The notes below the pieces were generated by a model. That model saw only the letters and a program-made list of their open reading frames with translations, was not told the origin of the DNA and made no database searches. DNA of 64,000 nucleotides from Micromonospora peucetia (GTDB lineage: Bacteria; Actinomycetota; Actinomycetes; Mycobacteriales; Micromonosporaceae): positions 4,092,001 to 4,156,000 of the forward strand of contig NZ_FMIC01000002.1 in assembly GCF_900091625.1 (NCBI RefSeq), written 5' to 3'. How positions within the stretch are numbered: the stretch's first letter is position 1; each line of letters begins with the position of its first letter. Positions 3,909 through 62,578 of this stretch are shown piece by piece. Position numbers and translations under genes: made by a program.

Positions 3909-4961
3909 ATGACCATCGACCTGACCGCCCTCGGCTGGGACGCCGACCGGGCGGCACACGCACGACGACGCGGCGGGCACCGGCCGGGCCGGGTGGCCCG
4001 GGTGGACCGCGGGGTCTGCACCGTGCTCTGCGCGGACGGCCCGGTCCGCGCCACCCTGGGCGGGGCGGTCCTGGCCGCCGCCGCCCGCGACCTGACCCGG
4101 CTGCCCTGCGCGGGGGACTGGGTGCTGCTGGGCACCTGGCCCGACCGCAACGTCACCGTGGAGGCGGTGCTGCCACGGCGCACCGCCCTCGTCCGGCGGA
4201 CCGCCGGCAAGGATGCCAGCGGCCAGGTGCTGGCCGCCAACCTCGACGCCGCCGCCGTGGTGGAGCCGGTGCACCCCGAGCCGGACGTGGGCCGGATCGA
4301 GCGGCTGCTCTCCCTGGCGCACGAGTCCGGCGCCCGGCCGCTGGTCGTGCTCACCAAGGCCGACCTGGCGGCCGACCCGGAGGCCGTCGCGCGCCAGCTC
4401 GCCGGGGTCGCCCCGGGAGTGCCGGTGCTGGCCGTCAGCGCCGAGCGCGGCACCGGGCTCGACCCGCTGCGCGCCGAAGTGGCGCCCGGCCGCACGCTCG
4501 GCCTGCTCGGCCCGTCCGGCGCCGGCAAGTCGAGCCTGGTCAACGCGCTGGCCGGGGCGGCGCTGATGCCCACCCAGGCGATCCGGCGGGTCGACGGCAA
4601 GGGCCGGCACACCACCACCTGGCGGGCGCTGCTCCCGGTGCCCGGTGGTGGCGCGGTGCTGGACACCCCGGGGGTGCGGGCGGTCGGCCTGCTGGACGGC
4701 TCGGCGGGGCTGGACCGGGCGTTCGCCGACATCGCCGAGCTGGCCACCGGCTGCCGGTACGCCGACTGCGGGCACGACGGTGAACCGGCCTGCGCGGTAC
4801 GTGAGGCACTGGAGAGCGGCGAGCTGCCGGCACGTCGCTGGGAGAGCTGGCGGCGGTTGCAGCGGGAGGTGGCGTACGAGAGCCGACGCAGGGAGACACG
4901 GCTGGCCGCGGCGCGGCGTGGCGGCTGGCGCTCCGGCCGGCGGCGGACCGCCCGCCCCTGA
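3909..4961 (+). CDS. rsgA: Small-ribosomal-subunit biogenesis GTPase RsgA
   Basis: The 350-residue product has the circularly permuted GTPase order of RsgA/YjeQ: an N-terminal OB-like region, then G4 (LTKADL), then the P-loop GPSGAGKSS near residue 200, then G3 (DTPGVR). A C-terminal zinc knuckle of Cys/His residues follows (CRYADCGHDGEPAC). RsgA binds the 30S decoding centre and checks late assembly. The start at 3909 gives MTIDLTALGWD, the usual actinobacterial N-terminus; the frame is open further upstream, but that part is not conserved-looking. The C-terminus ends in an Arg-rich tail. It is followed by a hairpin and then uvrA. Confidence 0.95.
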   Translation: MTIDLTALGWDADRAAHARRRGGHRPGRVARVDRGVCTVLCADGPVRATLGGAVLAAAARDLTRLPCAGDWVLLGTWPDRNVTVEAVLPRRTALVRRTAGKDASGQVLAANLDAAAVVEPVHPEPDVGRIERLLSLAHESGARPLVVLTKADLAADPEAVARQLAGVAPGVPVLAVSAERGTGLDPLRAEVAPGRTLGLLGPSGAGKSSLVNALAGAALMPTQAIRRVDGKGRHTTTWRALLPVPGGGAVLDTPGVRAVGLLDGSAGLDRAFADIAELATGCRYADCGHDGEPACAVREALESGELPARRWESWRRLQREVAYESRRRETRLAAARRGGWRSGRRRTARP

Positions 4962-4970
4962 CGGGTACGC

Positions 4971-5004
4971 GCGGGCGGGGTCGGCCAAGGCCGGCTCCGC
5001 CCGC
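4971..5004 (+). terminator. Terminator hairpin after rsgA
   Basis: The arms 4971-4986 and 4989-5004 pair over 16 positions with two G-U wobbles, starting 9 nt after the rsgA stop and followed by TTCTGT. The remaining ~200 bases up to uvrA hold no gene. A TAGAGT hexamer at 5090-5095 is a possible uvrA -10 box. I saw no LexA-type operator. Confidence 0.6.
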
Positions 5005-54253: not shown

Positions 54254-56245
54254 GTGTCCAACTCGATGCCCGGCGGCGGCATGGCCGGCTGGAGCATGCT
54301 CCGGTCGATGCGCAAGCGCGACGAGATCTCCACCCACCGGCTCAAGCACGGCGTGGCCCGCCGGATCGTGGCCTTCGCCCGGCCCTACCGCCGGGACATC
54401 GTCGTCTTCCTGGTCACCGTGGTGCTGGCCGCAGTCATCGGGGTCGCCACCCCGGTGCTCGCCGGCGACGTGATCGACACGATCAGCCGGGGCGGTGCCG
54501 ACGCCGGTAGCGTCGTGGTCCGGCTGGCGTTCGTCATCGCCGGGCTCGCGGTGGTCGACGCGCTGTTCTCCCTCGCCCAGCGGTGGTATTCGGCCCGCAT
54601 CGGCGAGGGCATCATCCTCGACCTGCGCACCCGGGTCTACGACCACGTCCAGCGGATGCCGCTGCAGTTCTTCACCCGCACCCAGACCGGCGCGCTGGTC
54701 AGCCGGCTCAACAACGACGTGCTCGGCGCGCAGCGGGCGTTCACCTCGACGCTTTCCGGGGTGGTCAGCAACGTCATCCAGCTCGTGCTCACCGCCGCGG
54801 TGATGTTCACCCTCTCCTGGCAGATCACCGCACTCTCACTGGTGCTGCTGCCGGTCTTCATCATCCCGGCCCGCCGGGTCGGCAAGCGGCTCGCCGAGAT
54901 CACCCGGGAGTCCTACGACCTCGACGCCAAGATGAACGCGACGATGACCGAGCGGTTCGGGGTGTCGGGCGCGTTGCTGGTGAAGCTCTTCGGCCAGCCC
55001 GAGGTGGAGGCGCGCCGGTTCGCCGCACGGGCCGAGCGGGTCCGCGACATCGGCATCCAGTCCGCGATGTACTCGCGGACCTTCTTCGTGGCGATGCTGC
55101 TGGTCGCCTCGCTGGCCCAGGCACTCACCTACGGTCTCGGCGGCTGGCTGGCGGTCACCGGAAACGTCAGCGCCGGCACCGTGGTGACCCTCGCCCTGCT
55201 GCTCACCCGCCTCTACGGTCCGCTGACCGCGCTGTCCAACGTTCGGGTCGACGTGATGAGCGCGCTGGTCTCCTTCGACCGGGTCTTCGAGGTGCTCGAC
55301 CTGAAGCCGACGATCGAGGAGAAGCCCGACGCCGTGCCGGTGCCCCGGGCCAGCGGCCGGGTCGAGTTCCGCGGTGTCCGGTTCCGCTACCCCAGCGCCG
55401 CCGAGATCTCGCTCGCCTCTCTGGAAGAGGTCGCCGCGCTCGACCGTACGGTCAACGAGCCCGTGCTCAAGGGCGTCTCGTTCGCGGTCGAGCCGGGGCA
55501 GATGGTGGCGCTGGTCGGCCCCTCCGGCGCCGGAAAGTCGACGCTGTCCATGCTGATCTCCCGCATCTACGACGTCACCGACGGGCGGGTGCTGGTCGGC
55601 GGGGTGGACGTCCGCGACGCCACGCTCGACTCGCTGCGCGACGAGATCGGCGTGGTCACCCAGGACTCGCATCTGTTCCACGAGACCATCGCCGAGAACC
55701 TGCGCTACGCGAGCCCGGACGCCACCGATGACGAGATCTGGGCGGCCCTGGCCGGGGCACAGGTCGCCGACCTGGTCCGGTCACTGCCGGACGGGCTGGA
55801 CACCCTCGTCGGCGAGCGCGGCTACCGCTTCTCCGGCGGCGAGAAGCAGCGCATCGCCATCGCCCGGCTGCTGCTCAAGGCCCCGTCGATCGTGATCCTC
55901 GACGAGGCGACCGCGCACCTCGACTCGGAGAGCGAGGCCGCCGTGCAGCGGGCGCTGTCGGTGGCGCTGACCGGGCGTACCGCGCTGGTGATCGCGCACC
56001 GGCTCTCGACCGTCCGCGACGCCGACCAGATCCTGGTGCTCGACGACGGGCGGATCGTCGAGCGGGGGCGGCACGAGGAACTGGTGGCCGTGGGCGGGCT
56101 CTACGCCGAGCTCTACCGCACCCAGTTCGCGGTCGCCGCCTCGCCCACCCCGTACGCCGACGCCACCGGCCCCGAGCCGGTGGCCGTGCCGCCGCTTCGG
56201 CCCTACCTCGCCGACGAGGCGCTGCCGCCGGCCGCGGCCAACTGA
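54254..56245 (+). CDS. ABC exporter, fused permease-ATPase
   Basis: The 663-residue product has six membrane helices in the first ~330 residues (VFLVTVVLAAVIGVATPVLA and others), then a nucleotide-binding domain with Walker A GPSGAGKST, signature RFSGGEKQRIAI, Walker B IVILDEATAHLD and the H-loop IAHRLST. It forms a homodimer or heterodimer for lipid or drug export; the substrate is unknown. GGAGG lies 5 nt before the GTG at 54254, preferred to the GTG at 54248 that overlaps that site. The stop is only 4 bp from the convergent glycosylase stop. Confidence 0.93.
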   Translation: MSNSMPGGGMAGWSMLRSMRKRDEISTHRLKHGVARRIVAFARPYRRDIVVFLVTVVLAAVIGVATPVLAGDVIDTISRGGADAGSVVVRLAFVIAGLAVVDALFSLAQRWYSARIGEGIILDLRTRVYDHVQRMPLQFFTRTQTGALVSRLNNDVLGAQRAFTSTLSGVVSNVIQLVLTAAVMFTLSWQITALSLVLLPVFIIPARRVGKRLAEITRESYDLDAKMNATMTERFGVSGALLVKLFGQPEVEARRFAARAERVRDIGIQSAMYSRTFFVAMLLVASLAQALTYGLGGWLAVTGNVSAGTVVTLALLLTRLYGPLTALSNVRVDVMSALVSFDRVFEVLDLKPTIEEKPDAVPVPRASGRVEFRGVRFRYPSAAEISLASLEEVAALDRTVNEPVLKGVSFAVEPGQMVALVGPSGAGKSTLSMLISRIYDVTDGRVLVGGVDVRDATLDSLRDEIGVVTQDSHLFHETIAENLRYASPDATDDEIWAALAGAQVADLVRSLPDGLDTLVGERGYRFSGGEKQRIAIARLLLKAPSIVILDEATAHLDSESEAAVQRALSVALTGRTALVIAHRLSTVRDADQILVLDDGRIVERGRHEELVAVGGLYAELYRTQFAVAASPTPYADATGPEPVAVPPLRPYLADEALPPAAAN

Positions 56246-56249
56246 CGCC

Positions 56250-56930
56250 TCAGCTCGCGCCGACCGCCGCCCGCAGCTCGGCGAACGCGGCCCCGAGCGT
56301 CTCGGGCGTGAAGTGCGCGTTCAGACCGCTGGGGTTGGGCAGCACCCAGAGCCGGGCGCCGGCCAGCCGTTCCGGCTGCGGGCCGAAGGCCGCCTTCGGC
56401 CGGGCGAACCCGATCCGGTACGCGGTCACCCCCACCACGGCGACCCACCGGGGGCGGTACCGCTCGACCTTGTCGGTGAGGGTCTCCGTTCCCTCGACCA
56501 GCTCGGCCGGGGTCAGCTCGTCGGCCCGGGCGCTGGCCCGCGCGACCATGTTGGTGATGCCCAGGCCATACCCCGGCAGCTCGTCCTGCTCGCTGGGGTG
56601 CAGCAACCGGGGCGTGAACCCGCCCCGGTGCAGCGCCGGCCAGAACCGGTTGCCCGGCCGGGCGAAGTGCCACCCGGTCGCGGCCGACCACAGGCCCGGG
56701 TTGATCCCGACGAACAACACGGCCAGGCCGGGGGCGACGACGTCGGGGATGGTGCGTTCCGCCGCCGCGGCGAGTTCCTCCCGCGTGGGCCGCGAATACC
56801 GTCCGCCGGCCTGTGCCGCCTGTGTCGCTTGCGTCGGCGGTGTCATCTGTGTCGTCTGTGCCGCCGGTGCGGGCTGCGTCCGTCCTCGGGCGGGGGAGCC
56901 GGGGCCCGACCCGTCGGCGGGCGTGGCCAT
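56250..56930 (-). CDS. mug: G/U mismatch-specific uracil-DNA glycosylase (Mug family)
   Basis: The 226-residue product has the Mug/TDG motif VLFVGINPGLWSAATGWHFA with the catalytic Asn in GINPG and the C-terminal loop LPNPSGLNAHF. It removes uracil or thymine mispaired with G. The first ~50 residues are a Pro/Gln/Thr/Ala-rich extension (TQMTPPTQATQAAQAGG) outside the domain. Its ATG overlaps the SDR stop by one base (TGATG), so the two are coupled. Confidence 0.93.
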   Translation of the reverse strand: MATPADGSGPGSPARGRTQPAPAAQTTQMTPPTQATQAAQAGGRYSRPTREELAAAAERTIPDVVAPGLAVLFVGINPGLWSAATGWHFARPGNRFWPALHRGGFTPRLLHPSEQDELPGYGLGITNMVARASARADELTPAELVEGTETLTDKVERYRPRWVAVVGVTAYRIGFARPKAAFGPQPERLAGARLWVLPNPSGLNAHFTPETLGAAFAELRAAVGAS

Positions 56931-57697
56931 CAGAGGCTCCGCAGCACGCCGCCGTCGACCGGCACGGTGACCCCGGTCAGGTAGCTCGCGGCGGGGGAGA
57001 GCACGAAGGTGGCCACCCGGCCGAACTCGGCCGGCGCGCCGATCCGGCGCAGCGGGATGGCCGCCTCGGCCTCCGCCCGTGCCCGCTCGGGGTCGCCGGT
57101 GGCGGCGAAGAGCTCCACGTTGCGGTCGGTCATGATCCGCCCGGGCAGCAGGCCGACCACCCGCACGCCCCGGGGCCCGTACTCGTCGGCGACGTCCTTG
57201 GCCATGCCCGCCAGGCCGGGCCGCAGGCCGTTGGAGATGCCCAGGCCGGGCACCGGCCCGCGCGCCGAGGTCGACAGAACCAGCCCGATCGCGCCACCCG
57301 CGCTCTCGGCCAGGGCGGCGGCGACGGTACGCACCATGCGGACGGTGCCGAGGAAGACGGTCTCGAAGGAACGGCGCCACTGCTCGTCGCTGACCGACGC
57401 GGCGCTGCCCGGCGGTGGCCCGCCGACCGAGACCAGCGCCCCGTCCAGCCGCCCGAAGTGCTCCCGAGCCGCCGCCAGGAGGCGGTCCGGCGTCTCCGCG
57501 TCGGCCAGGTCGGCGGTCAACCCGACCGCCCGCTGCGGCCCGCCGAGGCGCTGCGCGGCGGCGGCCACCGCGTCGGTGTCGCGGGCGGAGAGCACGACGC
57601 GGGCACCGTCGGCGACGAGACACTCCGCGGTCGCGTAGCCCAGCCCCCGGGAGGCGCCGGTGAGTACGTACACCCGATCGGTCAGTCCGAGATCCAT
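56930..57697 (-). CDS. SDR-family oxidoreductase lacking the canonical YxxxK
   Basis: The 255-residue product has the Rossmann motif LTGASRGLGYATAE and the strand SVGGPPPG. Where classical short-chain dehydrogenases have YxxxK, it reads SNGLR within LGISNGLRPGLAG. This variant occurs in a subgroup annotated as SDR or 3-oxoacyl-ACP reductase-like. The catalytic mechanism must differ or activity is reduced. CAGGAT stands 7 nt before the ATG, a weak leaderless signal. It is followed directly by mug. Confidence 0.88.
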   Translation of the reverse strand: MDLGLTDRVYVLTGASRGLGYATAECLVADGARVVLSARDTDAVAAAAQRLGGPQRAVGLTADLADAETPDRLLAAAREHFGRLDGALVSVGGPPPGSAASVSDEQWRRSFETVFLGTVRMVRTVAAALAESAGGAIGLVLSTSARGPVPGLGISNGLRPGLAGMAKDVADEYGPRGVRVVGLLPGRIMTDRNVELFAATGDPERARAEAEAAIPLRRIGAPAEFGRVATFVLSPAASYLTGVTVPVDGGVLRSL

Positions 57698-57786
57698 GCC
57701 GTCGATCCTGCCGCACCCGGCCGGATCTGCCGGCGGGGCCCTCGTGCCCCGCTCGCGGGACAGCCGCGCCTAAGGCCCGAGCGGAT

Positions 57787-57878
57787 GGGCGAAGGCAATG
57801 CCCGGCCAGGGGCGGGTCGGCGAAGGCAATGGGCCGGTCAGCGGTGGGTCGGGGGAGGCATCGGCCGGTCAGTGGCGG
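57787..57878. repeat. Three degenerate ~31-bp direct repeats
   Basis: Copies at 57787-57815, 57816-57847 and 57848-57878 share GGCGAAGGCAATG-CCGGTCAG-GG with a few differences. They lie in the 171-bp spacer between the SDR start and the end of the SCO6045-like gene, and the last copy runs over that gene's stop codon. No gene is seen in the rest of the spacer. Confidence 0.6.
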
Positions 57879-58315
57879 GCGGGGCGCAGCAGGCGTACCC
57901 GACCGGCGACCTGGACCGCGACGGCCCCGTCGGCCTGCCCCCATCCGGGCAGCCGGCGTGGGCGCGGCGGCCGGTGCCCGTCGTAGCGGCCGGTGGCCTC
58001 GCGGGTGGCCAGTTCCTCCGCGCCCAGCGGTGGCAGCGAGCCCTGGTCGCGCAGGTCGCGGGCCAGATCCCAGCCGTCGCGCAGCGAGCCGGCGGTTGGC
58101 CGGCCCGCCGCCCACCGGGCGAAGATCGCCGGCCACTGCGGGCCGAGACCGGCGGCGAGCAGCGGCCAGTGCCGGGCCACCTCCCCGGCGCGTTTGCGCA
58201 GCAGCGCGGTCCCGGCGGTGGCGAGTGCCGCCGGGTCGAAGCCGGGCGGTACCGGGCCGCCTGCCACCAGCGCCGCCACCAGGGCCGCCTGCCGCTCGGC
58301 CAGGTCGCCGCTCAC
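57869..58315 (-). CDS. SCO6045-like small protein, probable partner of the MNIO enzyme
   Basis: The 148-residue product starts MSGDLAERQAALVAALVAGG. Its helical pattern (QAALVAAL, FDPAALATAGTALLRKR, HWPLLAAGLGPQWPAIFARW) resembles the N-terminal domain of DUF2063-type partner proteins that accompany DUF692 enzymes, and it is what I recall as the SCO6045-like family. The second half is basic (YDGHRPPRPRRLPGWG). It has no cysteine-rich motif or signal. The GTG overlaps the stop of the MNIO gene by 4 bp. Role inferred: substrate recruitment. Confidence 0.75.
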   Translation of the reverse strand: MSGDLAERQAALVAALVAGGPVPPGFDPAALATAGTALLRKRAGEVARHWPLLAAGLGPQWPAIFARWAAGRPTAGSLRDGWDLARDLRDQGSLPPLGAEELATREATGRYDGHRPPRPRRLPGWGQADGAVAVQVAGRVRLLRPARH

Positions 58316-59130
58316 GTCACCACCGGGAAACCGGACGCGGCGGCGAGGGCGTCCAGCTCGGCGCGGAGCACCGGGGCGGGCGGGTAGTGCCCGTCGCGTT
58401 CCAGCAGGAGAGCCGGCGGCCGGTGGCGGGCACACAACTCGCGCAGCAGGTCGAGCACCGCCGGGGGCACCGGATCGGTGTGCGTGTCGTGGTAGTAGCC
58501 GCCGTGGTCGGTGCCGCCAGCGACGTGCACGTAGGACACCCGGTCCAGCGGCAGCCGGTCGAGCAGCGCGACCGGGTCGGCGCTCCGGTTGCGGGCGTTG
58601 GCGTACACGTTGGCGATGTCGAGCAGCAGGAACGCGCCGGTGCGGTCCAGGATCTCGGTGAGGAAGTCGGCCTCGTCCAGCTCGTCGTCTGGCCAGTCGA
58701 ACAGGGCCGCGATCGGTTCCAGCGCGATCGGCACCGGCAGCTCCGCCTGCGCGCGGGCGACGTTGGCGCAGACCGCGTCGACCGCCTCCCGGCTGCGGGG
58801 CAGCGGCAGCAGGTGGCCGGCCTCGACGCCACCGGCCCGGACGAAGGCGATGTGCTCGCTGACCAGCGGCGCCCCGACCAGCTCCGCCACCGCGCCCAGG
58901 TGGGCGACCCGCGCCGGGTCGACCGGTTCCGCGCCGCCGAGGGAGAGCCGCACGCCGTGTGGTACGACCGTCACGCCGCGCTCCCGCAGCGTGGCGAGCC
59001 CCGCCGGCAGCGGCCCCGTGGCGGTGACGCCCTCCGCGACCACCTCCACGAAGCGCAGCCCGGGCAGGTCGGCGACGAACCCGGCGATCTCCGGCCGCCA
59101 GCCGATGCCGACGCCGTGTGGCCCGGTCAT
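58312..59130 (-). CDS. DUF692 / MNIO-family multinuclear non-heme iron oxidase
   Basis: The 272-residue product is a TIM-barrel DUF692 protein. Conserved metal-ligand candidates are all visible: His58 (VPHGVRLS), Glu92-His93 (VSEHIAFV), Glu138 (ALEPIAAL), Asp171 and Asn174 (LLDIANVYANA), His202 (YVHVAGG), Asp215/His217 (YHDTHTDP) and Glu244 (LLERDGHYP). Characterised relatives (MbnB, TglH) use two or three irons and O2 to remodel cysteine or other residues in ribosomal peptides. It overlaps both neighbours by 4 bp. Complete and apparently active. Confidence 0.92.
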   Translation of the reverse strand: MTGPHGVGIGWRPEIAGFVADLPGLRFVEVVAEGVTATGPLPAGLATLRERGVTVVPHGVRLSLGGAEPVDPARVAHLGAVAELVGAPLVSEHIAFVRAGGVEAGHLLPLPRSREAVDAVCANVARAQAELPVPIALEPIAALFDWPDDELDEADFLTEILDRTGAFLLLDIANVYANARNRSADPVALLDRLPLDRVSYVHVAGGTDHGGYYHDTHTDPVPPAVLDLLRELCARHRPPALLLERDGHYPPAPVLRAELDALAAASGFPVVT

Positions 59131-60056
59131 CCGCCGCACCCGCCTCCGCATCCTCCGCCACAGCCGCCACCGCCACCGCCACCGCCACCGCCGCACGAGC
59201 CGCCGTCACCGCCGGAGGAACTGCCGCCGTCGCCGCCGGATGAACTGCCGGTGCCGCTGATCGCCTGCCGCTGGATCTCGGCCTGGGCGGCGAAACCGGG
59301 GTCCATCGCCCACAGCGAGGCGGTGCCGAACAACGCGACCCCCATCGCGGCGCCTGCCGCGCCGTAGGTGGCGTAGGCGGGGGCCGAGGCGGGCGCGAGG
59401 TAGGTGTGCTGCTTGCGCAGGCTCCGCAGCGTCAGGGTGGCGGCGCGGGTGCGCCAGGGCACCCGGTGCAGGAGGACGGCGGCCACGATCAGCGGAATCT
59501 GGCTCAGCACCAGCCAGCCCACCGGTCGGTCGTTCGCCAGGCCCGCGAAGATCCGCAAGATGCCGACCAGCAGCAGGGCGGAGAGCAGGAACGCACCGCG
59601 GCGCAGCGCGGTCCGGCGGGCCGGTGCGACCGCGAGCCCGAGCTGCTCCAGACTGGTCCTGAGCTGCTCGAGCGCCCGGCGGACCCACTCGTCGCGGCGC
59701 AGTTCCCGGGTGGTGGCGTTCCGGCTGGCGGCGAAGTGGATCGCCTGGTCCAGGGGCGTGGTCCCGGCCGGCCGCGGACCGCCGGTGGCCAGTCGCCGGT
59801 CCGGCCGTACGCCGATCGCCCCGCTGCTGCGCAGCCCGCCGAGCGAGGCCCAGATCGCCAACTGCTCCCCGCCGTTGAGATAGGCGACCTGCTGCGGGCC
59901 GAGCTGGCCCACGTCGTTCACCGATGGGCCGGAGAGGACCGTGAGCCGGTGCACGACCGTACCGACGATGATCACGACGGCCGCGAGGAGATAGACCCCG
60001 AGGAAGGCGGGACCGGAGATGCCCCAGGTGTCACCAGGTGCGGCGAGGACGGTCAT
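59127..60056 (-). CDS. TIGR04222-type membrane protein with Gly/Cys-rich C-terminal tail
   Basis: The 309-residue product starts MTVLAAPGDTWGISGPAFLG. It has membrane helices at ~16-40, ~154-172 and ~178-197, a possible fourth at ~232-252, and a cytoplasmic-looking charged segment between the first and second. Residues ~267-309 are almost only Gly, Ser, Asp and Cys: two GGDGGS blocks, then Cys288, ten Gly, Cys299, three Gly, Cys303, three Gly, Cys307, Gly-Gly. The layout fits TIGR04222 as I remember it. AGGAG precedes the ATG. Its stop overlaps the DUF692 start (ATGA), so the tail is a strong candidate substrate of that enzyme. Confidence 0.88.
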   Translation of the reverse strand: MTVLAAPGDTWGISGPAFLGVYLLAAVVIIVGTVVHRLTVLSGPSVNDVGQLGPQQVAYLNGGEQLAIWASLGGLRSSGAIGVRPDRRLATGGPRPAGTTPLDQAIHFAASRNATTRELRRDEWVRRALEQLRTSLEQLGLAVAPARRTALRRGAFLLSALLLVGILRIFAGLANDRPVGWLVLSQIPLIVAAVLLHRVPWRTRAATLTLRSLRKQHTYLAPASAPAYATYGAAGAAMGVALFGTASLWAMDPGFAAQAEIQRQAISGTGSSSGGDGGSSSGGDGGSCGGGGGGGGGGCGGGCGGGCGG

Positions 60057-60155
60057 GGGCTGCTCCTGTCGGGCGAGGGGGATCGCCGCCCAATTGTGGA
60101 GCAGACCCGCCAACCGCGCGAGGACTCCCCATCGGCCGCACGCCGACCGGGCGGG

Positions 60156-60728
60156 TCACCGGCGGCGGACGGCCTCCTCGACCAGATCGAGCACCGGGCC
60201 GAGGTCGCCGGCGGGGCGGCCCATCGCCAGGTGTAGCACCAGGCCGTCGTAGGCGAGTTCGAGGAACTGGGCCAGCACGTCGATGGGTACGTCCTCGCGG
60301 AGCACGCCCGCCTCCCGCTGCCGGGCCAGCCGGTCCCGGGTCGCCTCGGCGATGGCGGCGGCCCGCTCCGCCCACCGCTTGGCGAACGCCGGGTCGGTCC
60401 GCAGCCGCCGGGACACCTCCAGCTGGCTGCCGAGCCAGCCGGTGGTGTCGGGGGAGACCGCGCCAGCCAGCAGGTCCCGCATGACCTGGACCAGGCCGTT
60501 GCGGGCCACCGTCTCCACCATGGCCGCGGCGTCGTCCTCGGCGACCGCCAGGAAGAGGGAGTCCTTGTCGCGGAAGTGGTGGAAGATCGCACCCCGGGAC
60601 AGTCGGGTGGCCTCTTCGAGCCTGCGTACGGTGGCGCCCTCGTAGCCGTGCCGGGCGAAACACGCCCGCGCGGCGGCGAGGATCTCCTGCCGGCGCGCGT
60701 CGAGCTGGTCCTGGCTTACTCTGGGCAC
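60156..60728 (-). CDS. TetR-family regulator, AcnR-like
   Basis: The 190-residue product starts MPRVSQDQLDARRQEILAAA and has a TetR HTH (GYEGATVRRLEEATRLSRGA, then FHHFRDKDSLF). The N-terminus and RRLEEA-SRGAIFHHFRDKD phrasing match actinobacterial AcnR, which represses aconitase. No aconitase gene lies next to it here. It is 99 bp upstream of the membrane-protein/MNIO operon on the same strand and divergent from the carbon-nitrogen hydrolase. GTG start, with CACGAT 6 nt upstream as a weak leaderless signal. Confidence 0.88.
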   Translation of the reverse strand: MPRVSQDQLDARRQEILAAARACFARHGYEGATVRRLEEATRLSRGAIFHHFRDKDSLFLAVAEDDAAAMVETVARNGLVQVMRDLLAGAVSPDTTGWLGSQLEVSRRLRTDPAFAKRWAERAAAIAEATRDRLARQREAGVLREDVPIDVLAQFLELAYDGLVLHLAMGRPAGDLGPVLDLVEEAVRRR

Positions 60729-60760
60729 GGGTCGATCGTGTCAGCTCACCCCTGACCATG

Positions 60761-60785
60761 CAAACCGTACGTACGGCTTGGTTTG
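60761..60785. promoter_or_regulatory. Candidate TetR operator in the divergent spacer
   Basis: The 12-bp perfect palindrome CCGTACGTACGG (60765-60776) lies within a wider inverted pair CAAACC...GGTTTG (60761-60766, 60780-60785). It sits between the divergent TetR and hydrolase genes, where autoregulatory operators normally lie. Binding is inferred. Confidence 0.55.
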
Positions 60786-60822
60786 GCCAGACGCATGATC
60801 ATCTACTTCACGCGCCCCCGGT

Positions 60823-60828
60823 TAGGAT
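60823..60828 (+). promoter_or_regulatory. -10 hexamer TAGGAT for leaderless carbon-nitrogen hydrolase gene
   Basis: TAGGAT is followed by 6 nt (CAGCCG) and the GTG at 60835. Confidence 0.5.
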
Positions 60829-60834
60829 CAGCCG

Positions 60835-61704
60835 GTGACGCCACTCCCCACCGCCGTCGCGGTCCCCGCCGCACCGCTGACCGTCGCGGCCGTGCAGGCC
60901 GAGCCCGTCCCCGGCGACGTGGCCGGCAACGCGGCGAGCGCCGCCCTGCTGGTCCGCCGGGCCACGGAGCGGGGTGCCAGGGTGACCGTGTTGCCCGAGC
61001 TCTTCCTGCCGGCGTACCACCTGCCGACACTCGCCGCCGATCCGGCCGGCACCGACGTCGCGGCCGACCTCGCTGCGGGGGTCGACGACCCGCGGCTGGA
61101 CCCGCTGCGCGAGGCGGCCCGCGACGGCGGCGGCGCCGTGGTGGTCGGCGCGGCCGTCCGGCACCCCGACGGCCGGCGGACGATCTCCGCCCTGCTGGTC
61201 GACCGCAGCGGCGAAGTCCGCGTCGGGTACGACAAGCAGCAGCTGTGGAGCGGCGAGCGGGAGCTGTTCGTCGCCGGTGACCGGGGCAGCACCCTGCTCG
61301 TCGACGACTGGCGGCTCGGGCTCGGCATCTGCTACGACGGGTGCTTCCCGGAGCACGGCCGGGCGGCGGCGGCCGACGGGGCGCACGGGTACCTCTGCCC
61401 GAGCGGCTACCTGGCAGGCTCGGAGCACCGCCGTGACCTCTACTACGCCGCCCGCGCGCTGGACAACACGATGTACGTGGTGTTCGCCAACCTCGTCGGC
61501 GGCGCCGACCCGTGGCGGTTCAACGGCGGGGCGGCGGTCTACGACCCGGAGGGCCGGGCACTGGCCCGGGGCGCGGACATCGGTGAGGCCGTGCTGGTCG
61601 TCGCGCTCGCCCCGGAGACCCTGGCGGCGACCCGGGCGGCCCACTGCATGCTGCTCGACCGCCTGCCCGACCAGGGGCGCACCCGGTCGGCGCTGCCAGC
61701 CTGA
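60835..61704 (+). CDS. Carbon-nitrogen hydrolase (nitrilase superfamily)
   Basis: The 289-residue product shows the Glu-Lys-Cys triad: Glu in VLPELFLPAY, Lys in GYDKQQLWSGE and Cys in GICYDGCFPE. It should hydrolyse an amide or carbamoyl bond, as in omega-amidases, N-carbamoylputrescine amidases or beta-ureidopropionases; the substrate is unresolved. GTG start with a predicted leaderless promoter. It is divergent from the TetR gene and may be its target. Confidence 0.9.
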   Translation: MTPLPTAVAVPAAPLTVAAVQAEPVPGDVAGNAASAALLVRRATERGARVTVLPELFLPAYHLPTLAADPAGTDVAADLAAGVDDPRLDPLREAARDGGGAVVVGAAVRHPDGRRTISALLVDRSGEVRVGYDKQQLWSGERELFVAGDRGSTLLVDDWRLGLGICYDGCFPEHGRAAAADGAHGYLCPSGYLAGSEHRRDLYYAARALDNTMYVVFANLVGGADPWRFNGGAAVYDPEGRALARGADIGEAVLVVALAPETLAATRAAHCMLLDRLPDQGRTRSALPA

Positions 61705-61753
61705 CGGGCGCCGAGAGGGGGCTCGGCACTGTTGGCGGGCGGTCACGGTCCCG

Positions 61754-61759
61754 TAGGGT
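61754..61759 (+). promoter_or_regulatory. -10 hexamer TAGGGT for leaderless HAD gene
   Basis: TAGGGT is followed by 6 nt and the GTG at 61766. Confidence 0.45.
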
Positions 61760-61765
61760 GCCTGA

Positions 61766-62410
61766 GTGGCGCTGCTCCTGCTGGACCTGGACAACACGCT
61801 GCTCGACCGGGCCGGTCCGTTTCGCGCCTGGGGGGAGCGTTTCCTGGCTGGTATCGGCGCGCCGCCGGCCGACATCGACTGGCTGTTGTCGATCGACGCC
61901 GACGGGCTGACCGACCGGTGGGACGTGGCCGACGCCGTGCGTGACCGGTACGGGCTGCGGGTCCCGTCCATCGACCTGGTCGAGGAACTGCACGACGGCG
62001 TGGTGGCGAACATCCGGCTCGATCCGCTGGTCGCCTGCGCGCTGCGGATCGCCGACGAGGCCGGCTGGACCCCCGTGGTGGTCAGCAACGGCGGGGCTCG
62101 GCAGCAGGAGGCCATGATCCGGCGTACCGGGCTGGACCGCGTCGTCGCCGACTGGGTGATCTCCGAGGAGGCCGGCGTCAGCAAGCCCAATCCGAGGATC
62201 TTCGCGCTGGCCGCCCGGCGGGCACGACTGCCCCTGCGCGGAGCCTGGGTGATCGGCGACGGCCCGGAGGTGGACATCGGGGGCGCCGCCGCAGTGGGCC
62301 TGCCCAGCGTCTGGTTGCACCGGGGACGGAGCTGGGTCGACAGCCGGTTCGCGCCCACCCGCACGGTGGACGGCGTGATCGCCGCCGTCGCGGCGGTGCT
62401 CGCCGCCTGA
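61766..62410 (+). CDS. HAD-family hydrolase (phosphatase)
   Basis: The 214-residue product has the HAD motifs I LLDLDNTLLDRAG (nucleophile Asp), II VVVSNGG, III SKPNPRIFALAARRA and IV IGDGPEVDIGGA. It has a small alpha-helical cap, as in phosphoglycolate-phosphatase-like enzymes. It should be a Mg2+-dependent phosphatase of unknown substrate. The last codons GCGGTGCTCGCCGCCTGA are the first copy of the tandem array that follows. Confidence 0.9.
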   Translation: MALLLLDLDNTLLDRAGPFRAWGERFLAGIGAPPADIDWLLSIDADGLTDRWDVADAVRDRYGLRVPSIDLVEELHDGVVANIRLDPLVACALRIADEAGWTPVVVSNGGARQQEAMIRRTGLDRVVADWVISEEAGVSKPNPRIFALAARRARLPLRGAWVIGDGPEVDIGGAAAVGLPSVWLHRGRSWVDSRFAPTRTVDGVIAAVAAVLAA

Positions 62411-62578
62411 GCGGGCGGTGCTCGCCGCCTGAGCGGGCGGTGCTCGCCGCCTGAGCGGGCGGTGCTCGCCGCCTGAGCGGGCGGTGCTCGCCGCCTGAGC
62501 GGGCGGTGCTCGCCGCCTGAGCGGGCGGTGCTCGCCGCCTGAGCGGGCGGTGCTCGCCGCCTGAGCGGGCGGTGCTCG
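62393..62578. repeat. 22-bp tandem repeat array (about 8.5 copies)
   Basis: The unit GCGGTGCTCGCCGCCTGAGC plus GG is repeated perfectly eight times (62393-62568), with a ninth truncated copy of 10 bp. Copy 1 forms the 3' end and stop codon of the HAD gene, so the array arose by amplification of a gene end. Each unit contains a GGCG/CGCC mini-hairpin. On the minus strand all three frames are open through it. There are no variable spacers, so it is not a CRISPR. The remaining ~200 bp before the kinase gene hold nothing recognisable. Confidence 0.95.

Follow-up and report, generated by a model that had tools for sequence, protein, structure and literature searches.

Loci that bring together a TIGR04222 membrane protein, an MNIO enzyme (DUF692) and a small partner of the PME-type 2 family have been described by Antoine et al. 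2025, with Micromonospora examples of the tailed protein and the partner, and the accessible part of that paper proposes the same substrate as is considered here (PMC12452194). We analyzed a locus with the same three families at positions 57869–60056 of a 64,000-nucleotide stretch of the Micromonospora peucetia genome (contig NZ_FMIC01000002.1; hereafter the window, whose numbering is used throughout). The trio is not new, because the gene set, the idea of its substrate and Micromonospora examples are already given in PMC12452194, where the modelled TIGR04222 protein is that of Micromonospora purpureochromogenes. To that description, as far as it was accessible, the present analysis adds a co-occurrence test, fusions of the MNIO with its partner and a doubt about whether the tail faces outwards. 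We consider it likely that the trio is an operon for the post-translational modification of a membrane protein, in which the MNIO and its partner act on Cys residues of the tail and yield a thiooxazole metal-binding tail. The preliminary description of this DNA had stated that no characterised example of the trio was known. That statement stands in the biochemical sense for the literature searched, since two papers naming TIGR04222 turned up there and no experiment on a TIGR04222-MNIO-PME-type 2 system was found by title and abstract (most subscription papers lay outside the search), but the trio as such had been described.

The bufferins, oxazolin and fontiphorin (the 'captophorins', which combine an MNIO with a PME-type 1 protein) are likewise systems in which an MNIO and a partner act on multiple Cys-Gly sites within a single ribosomal product (PMC13419390, PMC13097082). 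According to the accessible parts of these papers, known MNIO substrates carry Cys-Gly, for example within EGKCG, and the 5-thiooxazoles formed by known relatives bind copper (PMC13419390, PMC13097082). Captophorins are small precursors, typically with Sec signal peptides, and their partners are DUF2063-RRE proteins. In the window, by contrast, an integral membrane protein lacking EGKCG is the candidate substrate, and the partner does not match DUF2063 in Pfam. MovX-type MNIOs carry the enzyme and a recognition domain in one chain, as do the fused relatives found here (PMC13419390, PMC12452194); however, the partner in the window is a separate protein, and the fused relatives add a PF26136-like domain. 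A further likeness was found in genome G709 (locus L257), where an MNIO lies beside a Cys-bearing peptide. This locus differs from the window in that a short separate peptide open reading frame (ORF), ending in GRCVVYCGCSCIA, precedes the MNIO (4664–5443 of L257), which is about 35% identical to the MNIO of the window.

Organization of the locus and its three proteins

All three genes are on the minus strand. Gene 1 (59127–60056, ATG start, with AGGAG directly 5′ of the ATG) encodes the TIGR04222 membrane protein of 309 aa, gene 2 (58312–59130) encodes the MNIO of 272 aa (DUF692, PF05114, MbnB_TglH_ChrH), and gene 3 (57869–58315, GTG start) encodes the partner of 148 aa, for which the published family name is PME-type 2. 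Genes 1 and 2 overlap by ATGA (59127–59130) and genes 2 and 3 by GTGA (58312–58315), so that the positions and overlaps given in the preliminary description are borne out by the sequence. There is one PF05114 match and one TIGR04222 match in the same genome. At 55500–62500, 14 small ORFs (20–120 aa, at least three Cys) were listed; judged by position, each of them overlaps or starts within a larger gene, and no separate Cys-rich precursor was seen in this listing, as had been said before.

The product of gene 1 matches NCBIfam TIGR04222 with 169.9 bits (cut-off 43) over positions 1–229 of the 229-position profile. Hydropathy and charge, considered over 48 homologues (picked for diversity out of 76, window included) and 129 further proteins, give the following layout: a short N-terminus, a first transmembrane segment (TM1, about 18–36), a basic domain of about 120 aa (37–156), a TM2/TM3 hairpin (157–199), a basic loop (200–229), a weakly hydrophobic segment (230–250) and a Gly/Ser/Cys tail (251–309). 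The tail, encoded at about 59127–59306 of the minus strand, reads ...GGSCGGGGGGGGGGCGGGCGGGCGG and contains four Cys, every one of them between Gly or Ser and the last of them third from the end. Cys occupies this third position from the end in 43 of the 48 aligned homologues, in which Gly or Ser follows 215 of 218 tail Cys, and variants of SSCGGGSSCGGGGGCGGGGGCGG end many tails among the related loci. Pfam gives no match to the protein at 1e-3, and its sequence lacks the EGKCG motif. As a 309-aa membrane protein it is distinct from the small secreted peptides with Buf1, Buf2 or EGKCG by which bufferin and captophorin precursors are recognised.

The MNIO matches PF05114 over residues 6–264 with 267.8 bits (cut-off 25), and its probable metal-site residues (H58, H93, E138, D171, N174, H202, D215, H217 and E244) are all intact, in agreement with its earlier designation as an intact DUF692 enzyme. 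These nine residues are identical in 150 of 150 aligned MNIOs, which comprise the window, 80 related loci and 69 sequences from other genomes (four of the 69 beside DUF2063); the alignment includes the MNIOs of eight loci of family f4 without a Cys tail and is confined to sequences longer than 230 aa. The residues of the window MNIO line up with the solved members 3bww and 8hci, and N175, D242 and H244 of HvfB are discussed as a metal site in the accessible part of PMC13419390. The enzyme does not reach the curated cut-off of any of the five NCBIfam equivalogs that it matches, BufB, HvfB, ApyH, ChrH and MbnB (the best is BufB, 188.2 bits against 310), and therefore lies outside all of these groups.

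The third protein is, as had been proposed, an MNIO partner, because in 29 distinct loci (33 entries less four repeats) enzyme and partner share a single open frame, of which the corresponding domain makes up the C-terminal part; in locus L093 the fusion is also evident by eye. Such fusions are not mentioned in the accessible part of PMC12452194. The protein of the window has no Pfam or NCBIfam match, DUF2063 included, while its relatives as listed carry the label PF26136, a label unconfirmed by profile, and several of them are named SCO6045-like C-terminal domain. Being encoded after the MNIO, free of a DUF2063 Pfam match and clearly tied to the enzyme through the fusions, it has the features of a PME-type 2 protein. 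When aligned by hhalign with 54 DUF2063 proteins, the partner gave a weak match (E 0.0017, probability 15.5), colinear over 2–90 with 3–104; the controls gave E 0.63 (reversed) and 0.1 (TIGR04222). The smaller partner alignment A1 alone gave E 0.045 elsewhere in the protein, a value that one of the reversed controls (0.037) also reached. Solved-structure searches with the partner returned nothing meaningful. AlphaFold2 models of PME-type 2 proteins have been reported, and model B there is a 158-aa protein of Micromonospora matsumotoense (PMC12452194); in the locus of this species among our relatives, the partner is likewise 158 aa long. SCO6045 itself appears in one RNA-seq table with a 3-fold value (PMC4991794, seen in part), on which nothing is built here.

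Cysteine tails and the MNIO in related genomes

Related loci were taken as the best 80 of 195 encoding an MNIO relative, with start codons chosen by alignment for the overlap counts. Both the MNIO and the partner have relatives that point to Micromonospora. The genome-neighbourhood comparison proposed in the preliminary description bore out the co-occurrence of the trio, which recurs in Micromonosporaceae and Actinomadura. A TIGR04222-like frame lies upstream of the MNIO in 76 of the 80 loci (three stop at a contig edge, and one holds only a short remnant), and the partner lies downstream in 78, the other two stopping at a contig edge. Genes 1 and 2 overlap by 4, 8 or 11 bases in 62/76 loci and genes 2 and 3 by 4 bases in 50/78. 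The arrangement of the trio is far beyond chance. At least one TIGR04222 copy with at least three Cys in its last 60 residues is present in 73 of the 76 loci, the exceptions being L027 and two Salinispora loci.

To these counts the following details can be added. In L027 (Verrucosispora sioxanthis, about 4900–5004), the tail is shifted relative to the reading frame of its gene, either by a genuine change or by misassembly of G-rich DNA. In L074 (Plantactinospora alkalitolerans), the TIGR04222 gene upstream of the MNIO has shrunk to the short remnant mentioned above, and the MNIO and the partner remain. In L057, L073 and L080, and likewise at places in G588, G596, G413, G422, G507, G531, G552 and G630, TIGR04222 copies lie next to each other beside a single MNIO, and often one copy has Cys and the other has none.

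The association of the tail with the enzyme was assessed in a class sample of 393 genomes, of which 114 were over the TIGR04222 cut-off and 98 contained an MNIO. The reading covered 129 TIGR04222 places in 102 of these 114 genomes; the 102 do not include the genome of the window or weaker matches, and G013 was dropped from the counts. Ten of the TIGR04222 genomes outside the 102, those named in our genome table, had no MNIO. It should be noted that the rule for calling a Cys tail was fixed after tails had been seen; linkage means a distance within 8 kb. A Cys tail together with an MNIO was found in 61 genomes and neither in 19. One genome (G350) had a Cys tail without an MNIO match, the start of an MNIO there being cut by the contig end, and 21 had an MNIO without a Cys tail, 18 of them from family f4. 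Fisher's test gave p = 1e-8, or 7e-10 with G350 scored as MNIO-bearing, but kinship makes both values too small, and the contrasts within groups therefore weigh more.

Such contrasts were found at several levels. In family f80, an MNIO is present in 14/14 Cys-tailed genomes and absent from 12 of 13 others; in the thirteenth (G472), a high-scoring MNIO lies next to DUF2063. Within one genus (148 genomes sampled, 11 over the TIGR04222 cut-off), all nine genomes with an adjacent MNIO have six or seven tail Cys, and both genomes without an adjacent MNIO have none. In the window's own family (121 genomes), TIGR04222 and MNIO occur together in 84 genomes, TIGR04222 alone in four and the MNIO alone in one; the four TIGR04222-alone genomes encode five proteins over the cut-off, with 0, 0, 1, 0 and 0 Cys after the domain. 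Gly-rich tails contain Cys in 66 of 73 cases in MNIO genomes (one MNIO cut by a contig end) and in none of four cases in MNIO-less genomes.

Because Cys tails track the enzyme so closely (an MNIO is present in 61 of the 62 Cys-tailed genomes and cut by the contig end in the remaining one), the C-terminal Cys tail is, as judged by comparison of sequences, a probable MNIO substrate. The preliminary description, which had proposed a modification system with the tail of the membrane protein as its substrate, is in keeping with the occurrence of Cys tails only in MNIO genomes (with the one truncated case), but it does not cover one clade that keeps the MNIO with tail-less TIGR04222 proteins. In addition, seven Cys-tailed places sit in genomes whose MNIO lies elsewhere, which suggests that the MNIO acts there in trans.

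We suggest the following scheme. The MNIO, bound to its small partner, would act on Cys of the Gly/Ser/Cys tail encoded by the gene just upstream. The complex would oxidise Cys-Gly sites of the tail before or after membrane insertion, and the likely product, by analogy with bufferins, oxazolin and fontiphorin, would be 5-thiooxazole at these sites. The outcome would be a membrane-tethered tail that binds metal, probably copper. We infer all of this (the modification of the tail, its chemistry, the binding of metal and any benefit to the cell) from the comparisons given here.

Side of the membrane and alternative substrates

The accessible part of the paper by Antoine et al. 2025 states that the TIGR04222 proteins have large periplasmic domains and a tail outside (PMC12452194), whereas charge and hydropathy put the domain of about 120 aa inside in our analysis. 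In the window's group, the N-terminus and the tail carry few positive charges and residues 37–156 and 200–229 many, a pattern that fits an N-out orientation with this domain inside. The tail region of the 129 other TIGR04222 proteins contains more of these charges (mean 3.3). The fourth segment reaches a Kyte–Doolittle hydropathy (KD) of 1.6 over 19 residues in only 9/48 Micromonosporaceae and Actinomadura homologues, in 2/17 Cys-tailed proteins of family f4, 3/16 of f80 and 0/15 of f81, and it is plainly charged in four f4 proteins inspected; TM3 reaches the same value nearly always (47/48 in the window's group, 17/17 in f4, 16/16 in f80, 15/15 in f81 and all of f2). Because the fourth segment is so weakly hydrophobic, the tail may lie in the cytoplasm, where the enzyme is expected; hydropathy alone cannot settle the side.

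This leads to a version of the explanation preferred here, not exclusive of it, in which the protein has three spans (N-out, C-in) and the modified tail forms a cytoplasmic, membrane-tethered metal buffer or redox sensor. We put it forward tentatively and rate its chance somewhat below even. Apart from the behaviour of the fourth segment, it has the advantage that no transport step would be needed. On the other hand, the fourth segment does reach KD 1.6 in 6/9 proteins of f2 and 2/2 of f67, the tails of the window's relatives have few positive charges, and predicted topology together with AlphaFold2 models puts the tail outside, as far as the accessible part of PMC12452194 states.

Several results weigh against the tail as the target of the MNIO. 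The 18 f4 genomes noted above keep the MNIO, and none of their TIGR04222 places that were read has a Cys tail. In eight f4 MNIO loci (six with a tail-less TIGR04222 protein and two without any TIGR04222 match), no ORF with at least six Cys turned up in a one-strand motif scan, and gene-by-gene reading of the f4 loci L091 and L093 revealed no Cys-rich candidate. In the class sample, no TIGR04222 protein exceeds the cut-off in 15 of the 98 genomes that have an MNIO; thus, MNIOs serve other ends too. The 84 MNIO-linked TIGR04222 places divide into 58 with a Cys tail and 26 without, although the 26 include some second copies next to a tailed one; G421 combines a linked MNIO with a tail free of Cys, and the Salinispora relatives L037 and L048 have merely one or two tail Cys. 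TIGR04222 proteins from genomes without an MNIO may belong to separate subfamilies and need not represent the same gene after loss of its Cys, and the profile link between the partner and DUF2063 is a weak one (probability 15.5). Since the lineages concerned have an MNIO without a Cys tail, either the substrate has changed there or the MNIO has an additional target.

These results also give some ground to a different explanation, according to which the MNIO and its partner modify another, unlinked substrate, TIGR04222 is a membrane anchor or accessory, and the Cys tail is coincidental or binds metal unmodified. The f4 genomes with only tail-less places among those read, the 15 MNIO genomes without TIGR04222 and the MNIO-less TIGR04222 proteins noted in PMC12452194 (as far as accessible) are compatible with it. 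However, it leaves unexplained why the MNIO is present in 61/62 Cys-tailed genomes (the other being cut by the contig end) and why tail Cys and enzyme vary together within a genus, and no further Cys-rich gene was seen near the trio of the window (55500–62500). We therefore regard this explanation as improbable. That the tail is an ordinary Gly-rich low-complexity sequence into which TGC codons drift from GGC, with Cys not selected, is scarcely credible, for although the tails are of low complexity and Gly-rich Cys-less tails exist in the TIGR04222 family, Cys is third from the end in 43/48 aligned homologues, and the Gly-rich tails with Cys number 66/73 in MNIO genomes (one MNIO cut by a contig end) against 0/4 in MNIO-less ones.

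Some features of the f4 lineages deserve mention in their own right. In L091, L093 and similar f4 loci, the gene for an MNIO-partner fusion precedes one for a TIGR04222 protein that lacks a Cys tail. Upstream, both L091 and L097 have a gene that resembles a peptidyl-tRNA hydrolase (by reading, without a profile), and a peptidyl-tRNA hydrolase neighbour is listed in Table 2 of PMC12452194, part of which was accessible. Four genomes (G153, G222, G172 and G275; loci L100–L103), in which the linked TIGR04222 copies are tail-less, have shorter unlinked TIGR04222 paralogues with a single Cys after the domain match near the C-terminal end; these paralogues could be an alternative substrate.

Beyond the trio, the window contains a TetR-type gene upstream (60156–60728) and an SDR gene downstream (56930–57697). 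A search for further conserved neighbours, based on the best 25 clusters from 20 diverse loci read by eye, brought no addition to the trio: clusters present in 19/20 loci, trio frames aside, appear to be frames overlapping the trio, antisense or shifted, and those in 5–9 of the 20 loci are mostly confined to one family. Spread by plasmids was also considered and set aside, as the nearest plasmid record (58.7%) has the trio beside mshC and looks chromosome-like. In L265 (Tsukamurella tyrosinosolvens, NZ_LR134462.1, a record called a plasmid), TIGR04222, the MNIO and a 61-aa partner-like protein lie beside mshC, and the TIGR04222 protein comprises two TIGR04222-like parts in one annotated frame, with a Cys tail.

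Significance of the system

The comparative tests strengthen the published substrate proposal. We see an even chance that MNIO chemistry acts here on an integral membrane protein, giving several oxidised Cys in a tethered, metal-binding brush, possibly on the cytoplasmic face. This would amount to protein modification, with no natural product released; some genomes would have the enzyme act in trans on unlinked Cys-tailed paralogues (seven places). The gene set is compact and readily testable in laboratory hosts. If the tail is indeed modified, MNIOs would act on resident membrane proteins in several families of Actinomycetes, TIGR04222, a family without a known function, would gain a role, and the MNIO family would widen from peptide natural products to protein modification.

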